Shown here in pieces: positions 28,167 to 47,422 of a DNA stretch of 64,000 nt. Position 1 is the stretch's first letter. Each line of letters opens with the position of its first letter. Source of the DNA: Bacteriovoracia bacterium (GTDB lineage: Bacteria > Bdellovibrionota > Bacteriovoracia > Bacteriovoracales > Bacteriovoracaceae); contig JAUIIL010000005.1 in NCBI GenBank assembly GCA_030431635.1, forward strand, positions 186,001 to 250,000, written 5' to 3'. The translations under genes were made by a program, and so were the position numbers. The notes under the pieces were generated by a model that ran no database searches, was not told the origin of the DNA, and saw only the letters and a list, made by a program, of their open reading frames with translations.

Positions 28167-28871
28167 TTATTTTTCGTTTGAGCTTTTCTTTTCAGGGAGA
28201 ACAATTCCTTTTGAAACATCAGTATAAAACACGTTTCTATTTAAGCTATCTAAAACAGCTTCATTATCAGAAACTCCAGTGATTGAAAAAACAAGTCTAT
28301 CTTTAAATCTTTTATTTTGTTCAACAAAACTTGCAAATACTTTATCCACACAAGCCATGAGGGCTTTTTTCTCTTTGTTTCCAACTACGTCAAAGCGAAC
28401 GCTTAACATCGCCTCACCTGAGACATAGATATAGCCTCCACATCCCTCTTCGTCATGAGCATCACCATGTGTGATTGAATCGGCGGGATAATTAAAAAAA
28501 CGGTTATTGGAACTAGAAGCAACTAAATCATTCGGATCAAGTCCTTTCATATCTACTAAACTCACCTCTGATAATAAAAATTCTATCCCTTCAACTGAAC
28601 CTTCGTCTTGAGCTGTATACACATAGAAATTAGAAAATGAGTTTCCAATCCGAGCATATGTTCTATCTGTTCTTCTCCCTTTATAAATAGCAGGTTCTTT
28701 TTCTGCTTCTTGAGAAGCAACATACTCTATCGTTTTTTTAATGTCCTCTTTCTTAAGAGGAACTTGAACAGCAGAGAGATAATGATACCCTTCAAGAACA
28801 GTTTCTTCTTCCTGCTGAGCAAAAGCTCCAAAACTAAGTAATGCTAGTAGTGATAGTGTTGAAAATTTCAT
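28167..28871 (-). CDS. Exported protein of unknown function
   Basis: 234 residues. ATG at 28871 has AAGGAG seven bases upstream. The signal peptide MKFSTLSLLALLSFGAFA is clear, cleaved before QQEEE. The mature protein is acidic with two central Cys and a short DAHDEEGCGGYIY segment; no domain is recognised. It starts 10 bases after the gene at 28882 on the same strand and the two form a pair inserted between hutU and hutI. It ends at a strong terminator. Function unknown. Confidence 0.65.
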   Translation of the reverse strand: MKFSTLSLLALLSFGAFAQQEEETVLEGYHYLSAVQVPLKKEDIKKTIEYVASQEAEKEPAIYKGRRTDRTYARIGNSFSNFYVYTAQDEGSVEGIEFLLSEVSLVDMKGLDPNDLVASSSNNRFFNYPADSITHGDAHDEEGCGGYIYVSGEAMLSVRFDVVGNKEKKALMACVDKVFASFVEQNKRFKDRLVFSITGVSDNEAVLDSLNRNVFYTDVSKGIVLPEKKSSNEK

Positions 28872-28881
28872 TTGTGTCTCC

Positions 28882-29622
28882 TTATTTTATTTTAACTCTT
28901 ACTTTTAGTTCAAATGAGTTTTGGTTATCTGAAAATTCACTAAAATCTGTAAAGCGACTTGTATCAGTATAAACTTCTGTCTCTCTAGAAATATTAAGTT
29001 CACTAAAGTTCCACACACCTAAAATTTCAATGTTTTTACCAACTGGACAAGAAAGCTCTGTTGAGAGTCTCGTGGACTCGATTGAAAATCCTGTTCCTGC
29101 TTTTTTTCCATATTCTCCAGAAACACGCGCATTTAATGAAGGAGTAATTCTTTTTTCAATTCCAACAGAGTGTCTTAGTAATCGATAGAACCCATCCATA
29201 CTTCCGCCATCGATGACATTATCTTTTACTGCTGAAGGAAGTAATTCATAAGCTAGCTTAAGATCATTTTTTATACGAGCACTAACATCAAAAGAAACAG
29301 GAGCTACTGTTTTTTGAACTAAGTCGGCATCATAACAAAAAGCATTCACTTTAAAGACAACTAAAGTCTCACCAACTCTGGCCAAATTCCAATCTGGCTT
29401 TATCTCTATTTTTGATTTTCCATATCCTCTCTTATTTAATCTATAGTACTCACCTTCATAACCAAGCCTAATATTAGTATTGGTTAAAAGCTCAATTTTA
29501 AGATCTACATTTTCTCCTAGTTTGTCTCTAGCTGCAGTTGCTCCCGCTCCTACTTTTAGATCCATCACCTGAGAATAAGAGACCCCTATAATAAGAAATA
29601 AAATCATTGATAAAGTTTTCAT
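28882..29622 (-). CDS. Probable exported beta-rich protein
   Basis: About 246 residues. I take Met at 29622 because it begins a clean signal peptide (MKTLSMILFLIIGVSYS); an in-frame ATG at 29646 would add MRIAQKYC. Neither has a strong Shine-Dalgarno. The mature part alternates polar and apolar residues in strand-like fashion (for example NIRLGYEGEYYRLN and NSFELKVRVKIK at the end), which suggests a small outer-membrane barrel. It is paired with the downstream exported gene at 28167. No family is recognised. Confidence 0.55.
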   Translation of the reverse strand: MKTLSMILFLIIGVSYSQVMDLKVGAGATAARDKLGENVDLKIELLTNTNIRLGYEGEYYRLNKRGYGKSKIEIKPDWNLARVGETLVVFKVNAFCYDADLVQKTVAPVSFDVSARIKNDLKLAYELLPSAVKDNVIDGGSMDGFYRLLRHSVGIEKRITPSLNARVSGEYGKKAGTGFSIESTRLSTELSCPVGKNIEILGVWNFSELNISRETEVYTDTSRFTDFSEFSDNQNSFELKVRVKIK

Positions 29623-29718
29623 ACAATACTTCTGAGCAATCCTCATGCCAAAAGAAGAGAAGAGAAAAAGCTCTAAAGAAGTTATTGAGTGTTTAATCGG
29701 TGTTCAGTGTAAATTTCT

Positions 29719-29754: not shown

Positions 29755-30978
29755 ATGATTAAGGTCTATAAAGATATCTCTCAACTCGCAACCCTTGAAG
29801 GGGCTTACCAAAAAGATGGTCGAAACCTGAATCCTCAAGATCTTACGCTGATTAATGATGGTTGCGTGGTTTTTGATTCAAAAGAAATCTTATGGGTAGG
29901 AAAAAGCTCTGATATACCAAAGGATTATTCAAATCTTCCTTATCAGTCTATGAAGGGAAAAACCCTGACTCCAGAGATTGTAGACTCTCACACTCATCTC
30001 ATTTTTGGGGGCGATCGTTCTGAAGAGTACGCCATGAGACTTAATGGAGAGGACTATCAAAAAATAGCTGAAGCAGGAGGAGGTATTCTCTCAACCTCCA
30101 GAGCAACAAATAATCTTTCTTCACAAGAGCTTTTCAAACTCTGTTGCCAAAGAATTGAGAGAATCTATTCTTATGGTATTGGTACTATTGAAATCAAAAG
30201 TGGTTACGGACTAAACCTTAATAAAGAAAAAGAACTGACACTTATTATTGATAAATTAAAAAAACACTACACTCCTAAAATACAAATTTTTAATACTTTT
30301 ATGCCTGCTCACGCTGTTGCCCCTGGTTTTAAAACAGGAAGTGAATACATAGAGAAAGTTGTCTTTCCACTCTTGGAAGAACTGGCTCCAATCAAGATTA
30401 TTGATGCCGTCGATATCTTTCACGAAAAAGGCTATTTCAACTCTCAAGATGTTGTTCTTCTTTTTGAAGAAGCAAAAAGATTAGGGCTTAAAATAAAATC
30501 ACACGCAGATGAATTTCAAAATAATAATGGAGCTTTACTCGCGAGCTCCTATCAAGCTGTCTCGGCCGATCATCTTTTAAGGATTTCAGAAGAAGGAATT
30601 AAAGAGCTTTCTCAATCAAAAACGGTAGCGACCCTACTGCCTGGAACTGCTTTTTTTCTGGGCAAAGAGCAGGTTAATGCAAGAAAATTACTTGATAAGG
30701 GAGTCAAAGTCGCCATGGCCAGTGATTACAATCCTGGTTCATGCCATTGTGATAACCTTCTTCTTTTGGCCTCTTTAGCTGCGCCTACTTACAAAATGAA
30801 TATTTGTGAACTTTGGTCGGCCATTACATTAAACTCTGCCCATGCTCTTGGGCTCAAAAAACAAGGGGCCGTCATAAAGGGACTCAAACCAAGATTTAGT
30901 TTGTTTGACACCAAAAACCTCAGTCAAATAACATACTCCTGGGGACGGAATTTTTCCCTCAACCATCTTTTTCATTAA
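29755..30978 (+). CDS. hutI: Imidazolonepropionase
   Basis: 407 residues, an amidohydrolase-fold enzyme that opens imidazolonepropionate to formiminoglutamate. The metal-binding DSHTHLIFGGDRSEEYAMRL block (about 76-95) is followed by GGGILSTS, IEIKSGYGL, the H-x-D segment KSHADEF, SADHLL and ASDYNPGSCH. All expected ligands appear present. It lies on the plus strand but is cut off from hutHU by two minus-strand genes and seems to have its own promoter. No hutG or hutF is in the window. Confidence 0.95.
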   Translation: MIKVYKDISQLATLEGAYQKDGRNLNPQDLTLINDGCVVFDSKEILWVGKSSDIPKDYSNLPYQSMKGKTLTPEIVDSHTHLIFGGDRSEEYAMRLNGEDYQKIAEAGGGILSTSRATNNLSSQELFKLCCQRIERIYSYGIGTIEIKSGYGLNLNKEKELTLIIDKLKKHYTPKIQIFNTFMPAHAVAPGFKTGSEYIEKVVFPLLEELAPIKIIDAVDIFHEKGYFNSQDVVLLFEEAKRLGLKIKSHADEFQNNNGALLASSYQAVSADHLLRISEEGIKELSQSKTVATLLPGTAFFLGKEQVNARKLLDKGVKVAMASDYNPGSCHCDNLLLLASLAAPTYKMNICELWSAITLNSAHALGLKKQGAVIKGLKPRFSLFDTKNLSQITYSWGRNFSLNHLFH

Positions 30979-31331
30979 TAAATATTTTTCATTCATAGTG
31001 ACTATTCAAAAGAAAGACTAAAAACGAGCTATTACTCTAGTGACCCTGTTGAGTACTTAATCTGACTTCAGGGCTCTACTTTTTTCAAGAGACTTGATTA
31101 GTATAGTGTTAAGCTCAGTTATTTCATTTTTTGTTTTTTTGTTGAAAATACTAATTGTTTAGAAACAATATTTTTTTATATCAGTTTTTAGCTGATCTTC
31201 CATTTTAAAACTCCAGAGTACTCTACTTGTGTTTTTTATCCTTTTTTATTTGTCGAAAATGCCTTGTTTCTAAGTATTTAAAATCTTAATTTGTGAATTT
31301 ATTTTATTTATGTGTAAATATTTTTCATTCA
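30979..31331 (+). repeat. 17-bp direct repeat, two copies
   Basis: TAAATATTTTTCATTCA occurs at 30979-30995 and 31315-31331. The first copy runs straight into TAGTGACTATTCAAAA. After the second, the related TAGTGACTAGTCAAAA starts about 35 bases later. In the second, TGACTAGTCA (31369-31378) is a perfect 10-bp palindrome. Low complexity makes chance likelier than in normal DNA, but the pairing of two elements is notable. Confidence 0.5.
31154..31177 (+). terminator. Possible weak terminator after hutI
   Basis: ATTGTTT-AG-AAACAAT (31154-31169) is followed by A and a run of T, the layout of an intrinsic terminator, but the stem is almost pure A/T. It lies 175 bases after the hutI stop. Confidence 0.3.
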
Positions 31332-32190
31332 CTTTGTTTTTAGTTTTATTAATTAAATTTATTTATAGTGACTAGTCAAAACTATTTGTATTTTTAGTGT
31401 GTTGGGCTCATTTTCTCTTTTTCCTTTCAATAAAGTAATGATTTTAATTTATAAATAATTATCATTTGCAAAAAAGGTTAATTTTTTTACTCTGGCTAAT
31501 GTTATACGTATATTTTATTGTTTTTCTTTTTTAAATAAAGCATATTTTGTTTACACCGGGAGAGGTAGTAATCCTTTGTCTTGAAAACATTTTTTATTTA
31601 TGAAAAATACCATTAAGCAGATTTTGCTCTCATGAATACAAATAACTTTTCCACTGCTCAGTGAAAAGTCTGTAACTCTTTGAAATTTCGACAAACATTT
31701 TTTAGTTAATCACGAAAAAACAAAAAAAATTTATACCTGATTAGCACTTATGAATTTTTTTTGTTGAGACAGAATACTCAAAACTAAATGAAAAATTAGA
31801 AAGTTATCTGTTTTTGCCCAAAGTTCAATAATTTTTACTTAATAACAAGCACTTGATCAATCTCATCAAAAAATTTTTGAAAAAGGACTCTTTTGAACAG
31901 AGGTGTGAATAAAAAAAATTTACTTAAAATACAATTTATTTATTTACGTCAAAAAAGAAGGATTAGCAAAAAAACTCATAGAGCAAACAAATACTATTAA
32001 CTCAAGTTCAAAAAGAAATTTCAGTCATCAATAATAGTCTCATCTCATTTTATGAAAACACTTCTAACTCATTGATTTTTTAATCAATAAAATTTATTTA
32101 CATAAGAGTGATCAAGTTTCATTTATGGTAGATCTAGGCGTGAAAATTTTTTTATTTACAATGGATAGTCATTTTAGAACGAAAATCTAG

Positions 32191-32754
32191 CTATTTCTCT
32201 TTTTTCCCCAGCCATTTGTTGAGTTTTGCCGTGAATTCAGGAGAGGAGAAGTCTGTTTCTCCAGTAACGACATCTACGACTTTGCCTTTGTGATAAATAA
32301 TAGACATGGGAATTTCTGAGATAAGGTATTTCGAAGTAACCTTCGATTCTTTATCGACCAGTACATCAAACTTGATATCATACTTTTGAATAGTCTTCTT
32401 AATGTTTTTTATTTGTTCTTCTTCATCACTGTTAACTCCCAAAATCTGAAGATCTTTTTTATCAAACATCGCTCTGAGTTTATTAAGCGAGGGAAACTCT
32501 TTCAAACAGGGAGTACACCAAGAAGCCCAAAAATTCATCAAAACAACAGGGGCCTTTATATCTTTAAAGGACAAGTTAGTGCCAACAAGATCTGGCAATG
32601 ATGTTTCATGAAACAAGTTTTCATAAAGACCAAACTTCTCCTTTGATTTTCCAAAAGAGCCAGCCTCAGAGTCAACAATTTCAAAAAAAAGCTGACCGGC
32701 CATAAAGCCGCTGAAGGAGAGAATAAGAAAAAGGAATGGAAAAAATTTCTTCAT
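32191..32754 (-). CDS. TlpA/ResA-like thioredoxin-fold protein
   Basis: 187 residues. An N-terminal hydrophobic segment (about 3-25) acts as a signal peptide or membrane anchor, so the protein faces the periplasm. The thioredoxin domain has NFWASWCTPCLKEFPSL with the redox pair in WCTPC. The cis-Pro loop is SEIPMSIIYHKGK. This is the TlpA/ResA pattern: membrane-tethered thiol-disulfide oxidoreductases used in cytochrome c maturation or general disulfide reduction. No cytochrome genes are nearby, so the substrate is unknown. It is divergent from the pseudopilin gene at 32792. Confidence 0.8.
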   Translation of the reverse strand: MKKFFPFLFLILSFSGFMAGQLFFEIVDSEAGSFGKSKEKFGLYENLFHETSLPDLVGTNLSFKDIKAPVVLMNFWASWCTPCLKEFPSLNKLRAMFDKKDLQILGVNSDEEEQIKNIKKTIQKYDIKFDVLVDKESKVTSKYLISEIPMSIIYHKGKVVDVVTGETDFSSPEFTAKLNKWLGKKEK

Positions 32755-44737: not shown

Positions 44738-47422
44738 TTACATTTGTTCTACGAGATAGGTATCTTCTGAACAGTAAGTTTGAAGATAATCAAAACTACC
44801 ATCTAGGTAGGATATTTTTGCATTGATAACACCCTGGTTATCTCCAACTAAAAAGATTTTTGTTGTATTTTCACTTACTTCATCAAAAATTTGTCCATCC
44901 TCATCCAAAATCTTTTTATCAAGTCTCATATGTCCATAAACTGTTCTACCAGAGGAGATTATCTTTCTTGCAGCTTTTGCCAAGTTAATTTGAACAACAC
45001 ACTGACTTCCAATGTTTTGCATTCTAAATTTATCCATAATGAATTTGATGTAATCATCACTAGGGACTTCAACGATTGAATTATTCCATCGTCCAATAAA
45101 CAGCGAATCGCTTAGGTGATTAAGAACACTGTATTGTCTTGTTCCTAAAGGATAACTCATGTTTTTATAAACATATCTATTTAGTGATTTTTTATTAGGT
45201 CTTTTATTAGAAGCGAGTAAGTTTATTTCTTTCTTGGAAAGTGTTAGGGCCAGGTTTTTATTTCCTAATAGGTGGTTTTCTACTAATTCGAATTCATCTT
45301 TCTCTTTTTGGATATATTCATTTGTATCAAAATAAACTTCATTCTCAGTGATAAAAATAATTTTCGAACGGATGTCTCTATTTTTTGTAACATAACTTAA
45401 GAGAGCATTTCCTGGCTCAACGCCAATGAATAGAAGAAAATTATAATCACTATTTCCTGGATCGACTTGTTTGAACTCAAAATCTAAATAAATCATTTTT
45501 TCATAACTCTTATCTAACCTGGCATCTTCTGTAATTCTTTCAGAATCTAGTTGAACAAGAAGATGACCACCTCTACCCGTTAACTTATTCTTATCAAGAA
45601 TTTGCTCCATTGATGTTGTTTCAATCAAAGGAACATCAATGACAAAACTTTGAGGCTCAAAAACAAGATCCGTATTAGTTGGAATATGACCATGCAAGAC
45701 GACATTGGCAGACCTCACGGCCATTCGATTATTAAGTTTTGTTTTAATCGTAATATCTCCTGCACCGTGATCAGAGAATGTTTCATAAAAATTATCATAA
45801 AACCTTATATCAAAATTGCTCTGCTTTTTTGAAACACCTTTTGAAAGCATGACACTATCAACGTTGATTTTCAGATTGCTATCTATTGGTAAATTCACTT
45901 TATGAATAACATCAACTCTTTTTTCAATCTCTTTCTTCACCGAGCTTTGAAGTGACTTAACAATTTGCTCACTTTCTTCAGCTGAAATTTCTTCCCCAAT
46001 ATTACTCATTACTTTTGCAACTTCTTCTTGAGTTAGACTTGATTGCTTAATACCGCCGACAAGAGTTTTATTTCCTTCTGATACAAGAGAATTTTGTGCC
46101 ACCGTTTTTACTGTTTCACGGTTAGCGACAACTGCTTGATTGCTTTTCCCTTTTGGATCAAATTTAAAGATTGGTTTTACAATATTAGTCTTAACTTCTT
46201 TCTGAACATTTTGAGATTGCGTCTTATTTTGAACGACACTATTTACATTAGACTCTTCTTCAAATTTAGTATTCATTTGCTCAATGATTTGATCTAGTTG
46301 TCTGTGTTTCTTTTCTACTGGAGCATTATTTGAATAATCATTCTCTCTCTCTATTTTTTTAGCAACAGAACTTTGCTTAACAGATGAGGAATCGACTACT
46401 TCTTTTTCCACATTGTCTTGACTATCCAAAACAATCGCAGGAGAACGTCCTCTGTTTTCTTGATTAGTCATTTCTGGCTTAACTTCTTTAAAATCAGAAA
46501 GACTATGCCAAACTTTTTGCTCACTCTTTTTCGTTTTTGATGAATAATCAATATTTGCTTCTTGGTTTAAGCCAACCAAAGAAGCTATTTTTTCATTTTT
46601 CTTTTCAATAGCTTCCTTTGTTGTTTCTTTTTTTATCTTTTTGACTTCCTTATTTACTTTTTTAATGGCCTTAGGAAATTCTCGCTCTATTTTTTTTGAG
46701 GCCAATTGAATAGTCATCTTTTTCTTTTTTGCCTTTTCATCCTCTTTCTGCTTTTGCTCTACCTTATATTCTTCTAGGTACTGCTTTAAGGAAGAGGATT
46801 TATACCCAAGGTTTAAATCTGATAATTGAGGAATGGTAATCAGCTTATTAAGAGATACTTTTTTCTTAAGCTGATTTTTACTTTGAATAGTCTTTACTTT
46901 ATCAGCAACAGCTTTTGCTTGCATTTTTTTTGAATAGTCATCGAAGTAGGCAACCCAGTTAACAACGCTTGGTTTTTTAATATTGAAACCGCCAAGTCTT
47001 ATAACATCTGAATGCGTTAGCTCCGTTGCAGAAACTTTTTTAATAATAACTTTTTGATTTAAACTTTTTTCCGAAATTTCTTTATTCTTTTGACGAACTT
47101 TTATTTTAACTCTTTTTTTGTTTTCAATTTTTTTAACAATCTTTTTCTTTTCCACAACACTTACTATCTGCCTTTTTTCAACAACAGGTTTTTTTATCTT
47201 TGCCACAGTTTCATTTGATTTCTTTGCAGTAGTTAAGCTTACTTTCTTTTGTTGTGATGAATTTAAAGTAGGAAGTTTTACAATTTTTTTGAGATTTCTA
47301 TGAATGGCAACTCTGGTTTTTTTCTCTAGGTTTTTTTTAACAGCAATGAACGTCACGGCGAATACCAAGACGGTAGTGAGCAGGAAAAGATTTTTTGTTA
47401 TCATCCGTAATAACTTCATCAC
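44738..47422 (-). CDS. Lysine-rich membrane-anchored protein, 894 aa
   Basis: A single N-terminal transmembrane segment (about 10-26, KNLFLLTTVLVFAVTFIAV) is followed by about 250 residues that are dominated by Lys with Val, Ile and Glu (for example KKIVKKIENKKRVKIKVR). Then comes a Ser/Asn/Gln-rich disordered linker (about 280-510). The final 380 residues look folded and beta-rich (for example GHIPTNTDLVFEPQSFVIDV and YLDGSFDYLQTYC). No family is recognised. It would anchor in the inner membrane with the rest in the periplasm, where a highly basic stretch could bind peptidoglycan or DNA. It converges with the transglycosylase, six bases away. Confidence 0.6.
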   Translation of the reverse strand: MMKLLRMITKNLFLLTTVLVFAVTFIAVKKNLEKKTRVAIHRNLKKIVKLPTLNSSQQKKVSLTTAKKSNETVAKIKKPVVEKRQIVSVVEKKKIVKKIENKKRVKIKVRQKNKEISEKSLNQKVIIKKVSATELTHSDVIRLGGFNIKKPSVVNWVAYFDDYSKKMQAKAVADKVKTIQSKNQLKKKVSLNKLITIPQLSDLNLGYKSSSLKQYLEEYKVEQKQKEDEKAKKKKMTIQLASKKIEREFPKAIKKVNKEVKKIKKETTKEAIEKKNEKIASLVGLNQEANIDYSSKTKKSEQKVWHSLSDFKEVKPEMTNQENRGRSPAIVLDSQDNVEKEVVDSSSVKQSSVAKKIERENDYSNNAPVEKKHRQLDQIIEQMNTKFEEESNVNSVVQNKTQSQNVQKEVKTNIVKPIFKFDPKGKSNQAVVANRETVKTVAQNSLVSEGNKTLVGGIKQSSLTQEEVAKVMSNIGEEISAEESEQIVKSLQSSVKKEIEKRVDVIHKVNLPIDSNLKINVDSVMLSKGVSKKQSNFDIRFYDNFYETFSDHGAGDITIKTKLNNRMAVRSANVVLHGHIPTNTDLVFEPQSFVIDVPLIETTSMEQILDKNKLTGRGGHLLVQLDSERITEDARLDKSYEKMIYLDFEFKQVDPGNSDYNFLLFIGVEPGNALLSYVTKNRDIRSKIIFITENEVYFDTNEYIQKEKDEFELVENHLLGNKNLALTLSKKEINLLASNKRPNKKSLNRYVYKNMSYPLGTRQYSVLNHLSDSLFIGRWNNSIVEVPSDDYIKFIMDKFRMQNIGSQCVVQINLAKAARKIISSGRTVYGHMRLDKKILDEDGQIFDEVSENTTKIFLVGDNQGVINAKISYLDGSFDYLQTYCSEDTYLVEQM

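Follow-up and report, generated by a model that had tools for sequence, protein, structure and literature searches.

The region described here lies in a window of 64,000 nucleotides, which is the whole stretch of DNA analyzed (positions 186001–250000 of contig C14, in a genome of 3.32 Mb and 19 contigs). It is the gap that begins just after the hutI stop codon at 30978 and ends at the stop of the minus-strand gene at 32191–32754, positions being those of the window (Table 1). The two flanking genes are tail-to-tail and both point into the gap, and the ORF listing has no ORF of at least 60 aa in it. The first of them, which we take to be hutI from its sequence and the gene order rather than from a family scan, has matches in 118 of 129 family genomes, and the TlpA-like gene has matches in all 129 (both counts include the genome itself, and the second includes paralogs). 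In comparison with the three named database loci that it found, hutI is 55–62% identical to Halobacteriovorax sp., Bacteriovoracaceae and Bacteriovoracales records, and by this placement near its relatives the source bacterium appears to be a relative of the predatory Halobacteriovorax.

Table 1. Features of the gap and its flanking genes (window positions)
Feature	Position	Strand	Remarks
hutI, imidazolonepropionase (presumed), reads into gap	29755–30978	+	ORF
ORF-free, AT-rich spacer with convergent flanks	30979–32190		1212 bp; GC 0.246; coding signal absent (p 0.32)
17-bp direct repeat TAAATATTTTTCATTCA, copy 1	30979–30995	+	exact; immediately 3′ of hutI stop codon
Companion element TAGTGACTATTCAAAA	30996–31011	+	adjoins repeat copy 1
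17-bp direct repeat TAAATATTTTTCATTCA, copy 2	31315–31331	+	exact
Companion element TAGTGACTAGTCAAAA	31366–31381	+	34 bp past repeat copy 2
Long A/T hairpin, candidate two-way terminator	31719–31765		16/17 pairs, loop 13; near the middle of the gap
AT hairpin ATTGATT-TTTT-AATCAAT	32071–32088		named in the first-pass annotation
TlpA-like thioredoxin/AhpC-TSA protein, converges on gap	32191–32754	−	ORF; Pfam AhpC-TSA 3.8e-20

A first-pass annotation, made from the letters of the window, had described this as the only large gap in the window, and that description holds: the next longest stretches without a 60-aa ORF measure 407, 303 and 256 bp. In a larger sample of the genome (the window plus twenty 20-kb stretches, 464 kb or 14% of the total) it is again the longest such stretch, about three times the runner-up of 407 bp; when the ORF limit is raised to 80 or 100 aa, the next longest stretch in the sample is 776 bp.

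The gap was also called very AT-rich, and its GC content of 24.6% (standard error 1.2%), compared with 27.9 to 40.9% in the remaining 1-kb steps of the window, bears this out. It is the lowest-GC 1.2 kb in the 464-kb sample, in which windows that do not overlap it have at least 27.5% GC (n = 8749 overlapping windows). Other intergenic 200-bp windows have a mean of 34.2% and a minimum of 22.5% (n = 86; genes called at 90 aa), the mean being pushed up by small genes that were not recognized, and gaps of at least 100 bp have a mean of 31.4% (71 gaps including the present one; ORF limit 60 aa); in both intergenic sets genes were called by ORF length alone, so that small real genes are counted as intergenic. 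A few short gaps are similarly AT-rich (for example, 256 bp at 24.2%), and because some other gaps are about as AT-rich, low GC alone fails to single this one out. The gap matches the GC fraction of four-fold degenerate sites, 0.250 (48,027 sites in the sample); this is the value expected of DNA free of constraint in this genome. Passages in PMC2936535 report that bacterial mutation is AT-biased, and caution that four-fold sites are neutral only approximately.

The composition also differs along the gap, with an AT skew of −0.25 in its first half and +0.08 in its second. The strand composition flips from T-rich to A-rich at about 31640, with the long hairpin near the flip, and the T-rich part at 31079–31578 has 136 A, 251 T, 61 G and 52 C in 500 bases. 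On the coding strand, four-fold sites in the window and the C14 stretches have T at 0.48–0.49 and A at 0.27–0.29 in either gene orientation. Read-through transcription was considered as the origin of the T-rich and A-rich halves, and the T-rich part does resemble coding-strand four-fold sites, but other intergenic DNA downstream of genes has no T excess and we therefore do not rely on this cause. A replication terminus or origin at the gap was rejected, as the cumulative GC skew declines on either side of it. The strongest AT skew among the 1-kb steps of the window, −0.285, is found at 46001–47000 inside an 894-aa Lys-rich ORF on the minus strand.

The long hairpin, which the first-pass annotation did not name, is formed by the arms AACAAAAAAAATTTATA and TATGAATTTTTTTTGTT around 13 bases, with a run of eight A in one arm and a run of eight T in the other. 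It stands above chance: of 200 dinucleotide shuffles 2 equaled it, and of 200 Markov sequences 6 did. Folded as RNA it reaches −14.1 kcal/mol on the plus strand, which none of 200 shuffles equals, and −9.6 kcal/mol on the minus strand, which 2 of 200 equal, the stretch having been chosen afterwards. Its stem consists of nearly all A-T pairs with almost no G-C; a simple terminator scan, which requires three G-C pairs and found no GC-rich terminator in the gap, does not have it among its finds. Two-way intrinsic terminators between convergent genes are a known kind of element, and the A-run and T-run arms and the convergent flanks are like them, whereas the almost purely A-T stem and the distances of 740 bp from hutI and 425 bp from tlpA are unlike them. 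Judged by its A-arm/T-arm form between convergent genes, this hairpin may be a two-way terminator. As for the “several AT hairpins” of the earlier description, the one at 32071–32088 exists, and among shuffles of its 46 bases 3 of 200 and 4 of 200 fold as well on the two strands (again chosen afterwards), but short stems are not above chance in number. Counted as perfect stems with loops of 3–8, the gap has one 7-bp stem against means of 2.3–3.5, and seven 6-bp stems against 7.1–9.7.

Could the gap be a protein-binding or silenced (H-NS-like) region, or a transcription buffer that separates the convergent genes? We consider this very unlikely. In its favor are the AT-richness of the gap and its convergent flanks, the excess of T on the hutI side and of A on the tlpA side, and the form of the long hairpin just described; in addition, one copy of the repeated element carries the palindrome TGACTAGTCA. 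On the other hand, a terminator takes about 50 bp and not 1.2 kb, the scan found none that is GC-rich, the two exact copies of the companion element are both inside the gap, and most relatives manage without a spacer (see below). H-NS-silenced AT-rich islands are likewise a known kind, and AT-richness is the sole likeness here: the gap has no genes to silence, and a search of the genome with PF00816 gave 0 matches to the H-NS family while the E. coli control was positive, so the earlier suggestion of an H-NS-like silenced region finds no support, as far as this one family of AT-binding proteins goes.

The paired 17-bp direct repeat and its companions, which the first-pass annotation had pointed out, are present at the positions in Table 1. 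The exact repeat exceeds chance modestly, with p values of 0.006 by dinucleotide shuffle, 0.026 by second-order Markov sequences and 0.002 when the halves are shuffled apart (500 trials each), and the companion TAGTGACTANTCAAAA has exactly two exact copies genome-wide, the two in the gap. Allowing two mismatches at most, 15 sites genome-wide fit the companion pattern, fewer than the 47 of its backward control. With up to three mismatches in the window the companion pattern has 11 matches against 5.1 expected (reached by 2 of 100 shuffles), and the 17-mer has 8 against 2.6 expected (reached by 1 of 100); the relaxed companion matches are given no weight because four of them sit at 46416–46943 inside the 894-aa ORF. 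When repeat pairs were chained in twos, the best chain gave p 0.005 (1/200) with either of two null models, but it links the companion with a different weak pair and leaves out the 17-mer. Repeat spacings of 336, 348, 370 and 387 bp hinted at a 350-bp unit duplicated in tandem long ago, but this was not significant, the remainder giving p 0.90.

These repeats would be traces of insertion if the junction had received AT-rich non-coding DNA of foreign origin or a gene-free small mobile element. This is the main rival to the reading we prefer, and it gains from the junction being closed in most relatives and from the exact 17-bp repeat and its companion occurring twice in the same order; nevertheless, we think it unlikely. 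The repeats enclose just ~340–370 bp within the gap and not all of it, and the inverted repeats (the 25 longest of 45) do not link its ends. Among the matches listed, the gap DNA has no second copy in its own genome and no homologous DNA outside it, the matches there and in the relatives being short ones. Neither terminal repeats at the ends nor extra copies, the marks of a mobile element, were found. A phage or plasmid origin was rejected as well: 50,697 phage records gave matches of only 30–47 bp at E 0.03 or worse, and 72,556 plasmid records gave no match.

A hidden gene in the gap was likewise rejected. Apart from the frames of the flanking genes, the longest stop-to-stop frame entering the gap is 58 aa, and the best segment of a codon model (111,712 codons) scores 8.6, where 500 second-order Markov sequences have a mean of 8.1. 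Translated in all six frames, with X in place of stops, the gap matches no Pfam or PHROG family, integrases included, and no homology to genes at this junction in relatives was found (see below). Five of the six frames were compared with relatives (the first plus-strand frame across 129 family genomes and the remaining four across 39 each) and matched only themselves, besides two weak minus-frame matches of 16.8 bits each, at E 0.0045 in the genome itself (contig C1) and E 0.0065 in G056; the third minus frame, outside these searches, is the one with most stops (46 against 37.6 expected).

Nor is there much to suggest a structured RNA. Rfam gave no match at gathering score, the five matches in the gap being to eukaryotic snoRNAs and below threshold, and the two halves fold like shuffles (z +0.45 and −0.09 on the plus strand, −1.29 and −0.85 on the minus strand; 20 shuffles each), the long hairpin being the sole exception. 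The RNA gene that the first-pass annotation offered as one possibility thus finds little support. A functional non-coding RNA, or a gene for a very small protein, specific to this genus is, in our judgment, quite improbable. In its favor, the gap is exceptionally long, the genomes compared are all from other genera, one hairpin is above chance and there is a small ORF of 35 codons at 31893 with a TTG start and AAGGA ahead of it. Against it stand the ordinary folding, the short frames and the lack of coding signal, as well as a count of promoter-like sites (8) close to that in shuffles (6.8) and a composition the same as that of unselected sites. Very improbable, too, is a genus-specific functional DNA or RNA element kept between the convergent genes, which the paired TAAATATTTTTCATTCA and TAGTGACTANTCAAAA together with the long hairpin would mark.

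To see what occupies this place in relatives, 128 other family genomes, all of other genera, were compared, and pairs were formed of a hutI and a TlpA-like gene on one contig and on opposite strands. From 114 TlpA-like and 118 hutI matches this gave 102 pairs among the matches listed; 12 TlpA-like matches had no partner, and lower-scoring TlpA-like matches, the window’s own pair and one partial hutI match (G062) were left out. Measured from match ends and not from exact stop codons, the junction is closed (79 bp or less, or overlapping) in 60 of these 102 pairs, two have junctions of 114 and 191 bp, and the other 40 have at least 295 bp. Of these 40 junctions, 37 were read (the others being G050 and G127, at contig edges, and G125), and every one contains an ORF of 88 to 587 aa; in none does a run without a 60-aa frame on either strand exceed 144 bp. 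Since the junction is closed in 60 of 102 pairs and cargo differs among the 37 long junctions read, genes apparently enter and leave there; to judge from these gene arrangements, the cargo differs between genera and small genes come and go. Gene-exchange junctions between conserved genes are a general notion, and this one is like them in being closed in most relatives with cargo that varies by genus; unlike them, the junction of the present genome has DNA but no gene and no Pfam or PHROG match.

By visual inspection, the junctions of ~300–520 bp carry an ORF in the hutI orientation that is Cys-rich and resembles a lipoprotein. Three such ORFs were scanned: one passes the Pfam cut-offs for both Kazal_1 and Kazal_2, one falls just below that for Kazal_2 and one is without a match. 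Other cargo includes a 386-aa ORF (one genus), an AhpC/TSA gene, a similar pair of 205- and 222-aa ORFs, and longer sets. The Cys-rich, partly Kazal-type ORF lies between hutI and the TlpA-like gene in members of several genera: G022–G029, G031, G033–G035, G046–G049, G051 and G052, and also in G058–G061, G067, G068, G070, G089–G091 and G128. A Kazal-type inhibitor in relatives of protease-secreting predators could serve self-protection. Elsewhere in the present genome, a 107-aa ORF (L138, 1336–1659, minus strand, around C2:112081–112296) gives two Kazal_2 matches; its neighbors look like glyA and nrdR.

The best TlpA-like match among the matches listed (57%) is that of G076, in which the hutI and TlpA-like ends overlap. 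Its proteins are 71, 82, 59 and 55% identical to those of the window genes that we presume to be hutH, hutU, hutI and glpK, respectively, and 38% to an 81-aa ORF; G004 is similarly close (hutI 55%, glpK 56%), which leaves sister status of G076 unsupported. The hutI of G076 scores under many others, and by these scores G076 does not appear clearly the nearest genome. No donor gene is evident, because the G076 junction is closed and G076 is not clearly nearest. In the window, adjacent 234- and 254-aa ORFs lie between hutU and hutI (28167–29646, minus strand) with no Pfam match at E 0.01, and hutU and hutI are adjacent in G076.

Does the gap retain a trace of any such cargo? A decayed Kazal lipoprotein was rejected, since a Kazal profile built from 16 sequences has E values of at least 0.55 against the gap. 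The 63 cargo ORFs were compared as well, and a decayed copy of one of them was rejected too: tblastn did no better than in 60 shuffled gaps (p 0.43). This holds for the one match at E 0.014, which covers 39 aa of a 411-aa frame of G126. The Kazal profile and a first cargo tblastn included misplaced stretches from G050 and G127, at contig edges, and the 63-ORF test left both out. The first-pass annotation had named as the sign of decay a conserved protein spanning the gap in a relative; relatives do have genes at the junction, but no remnant of one is recognizable in the gap.

We judge the gap to be ordinary: it is DNA mostly free of selective constraint, at a junction where cargo is exchanged, and most likely a gene decayed past recognition (probability roughly 0.65). 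In this scheme an extra gene would formerly have lain between hutI and tlpA, as in many relatives, and would then have been inactivated; the dead gene would have drifted by AT-biased mutation to the mutational balance of the genome until its homology was gone, and the hairpin near the middle may stop transcription arriving from both flanks. That a gene was present and then decayed, as opposed to non-coding DNA entering or growing there, we infer. Like a pseudogene, the gap has no gene-length frame, has a GC content like that of four-fold sites, and corresponds to a place where relatives have intact genes, although these differ between genera and 60 of the 102 junctions, including that of G076, have none; recognizable homology to an intact gene is missing. 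Because no residual homology rises above noise, we do not claim that it belongs among pseudogenes, and decay is inferred only. Of the three suggestions in the first-pass annotation, decayed DNA fits best, with the four-fold-like GC and the small genes in relatives on its side and the lack of any remnant against it.

Two further points count against decay: the survival of 1.2 kb is left unaccounted for, decay to saturation being slow and bacteria tending to delete such DNA, and none of the direct repeat, the long hairpin and the T/A switch at ~31640 is explained directly by a purely neutral history. A partial parallel is found in Buchnera, where passages of PMC3164680 describe spacers composed of pseudogenes whose recognizability varies by stage. 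Like the decaying-pseudogene spacers of those passages, the gap is AT-rich and ORF-free with conserved neighbors and with genes in related genomes, and decay past recognition, as proposed here, is a stage described there. The differences are that no other copy of the gene in question, intact or half-decayed, is known here and that the genome, at 3.3 Mb, is not that of a reduced symbiont.

A single spacer is of small importance by itself. It is useful as a natural readout, since the mutational balance of this lineage can be estimated independently from 1.2 kb with a four-fold-like GC content, and gene turnover between two conserved genes has a small but clear illustration in the hutI/tlpA junction.
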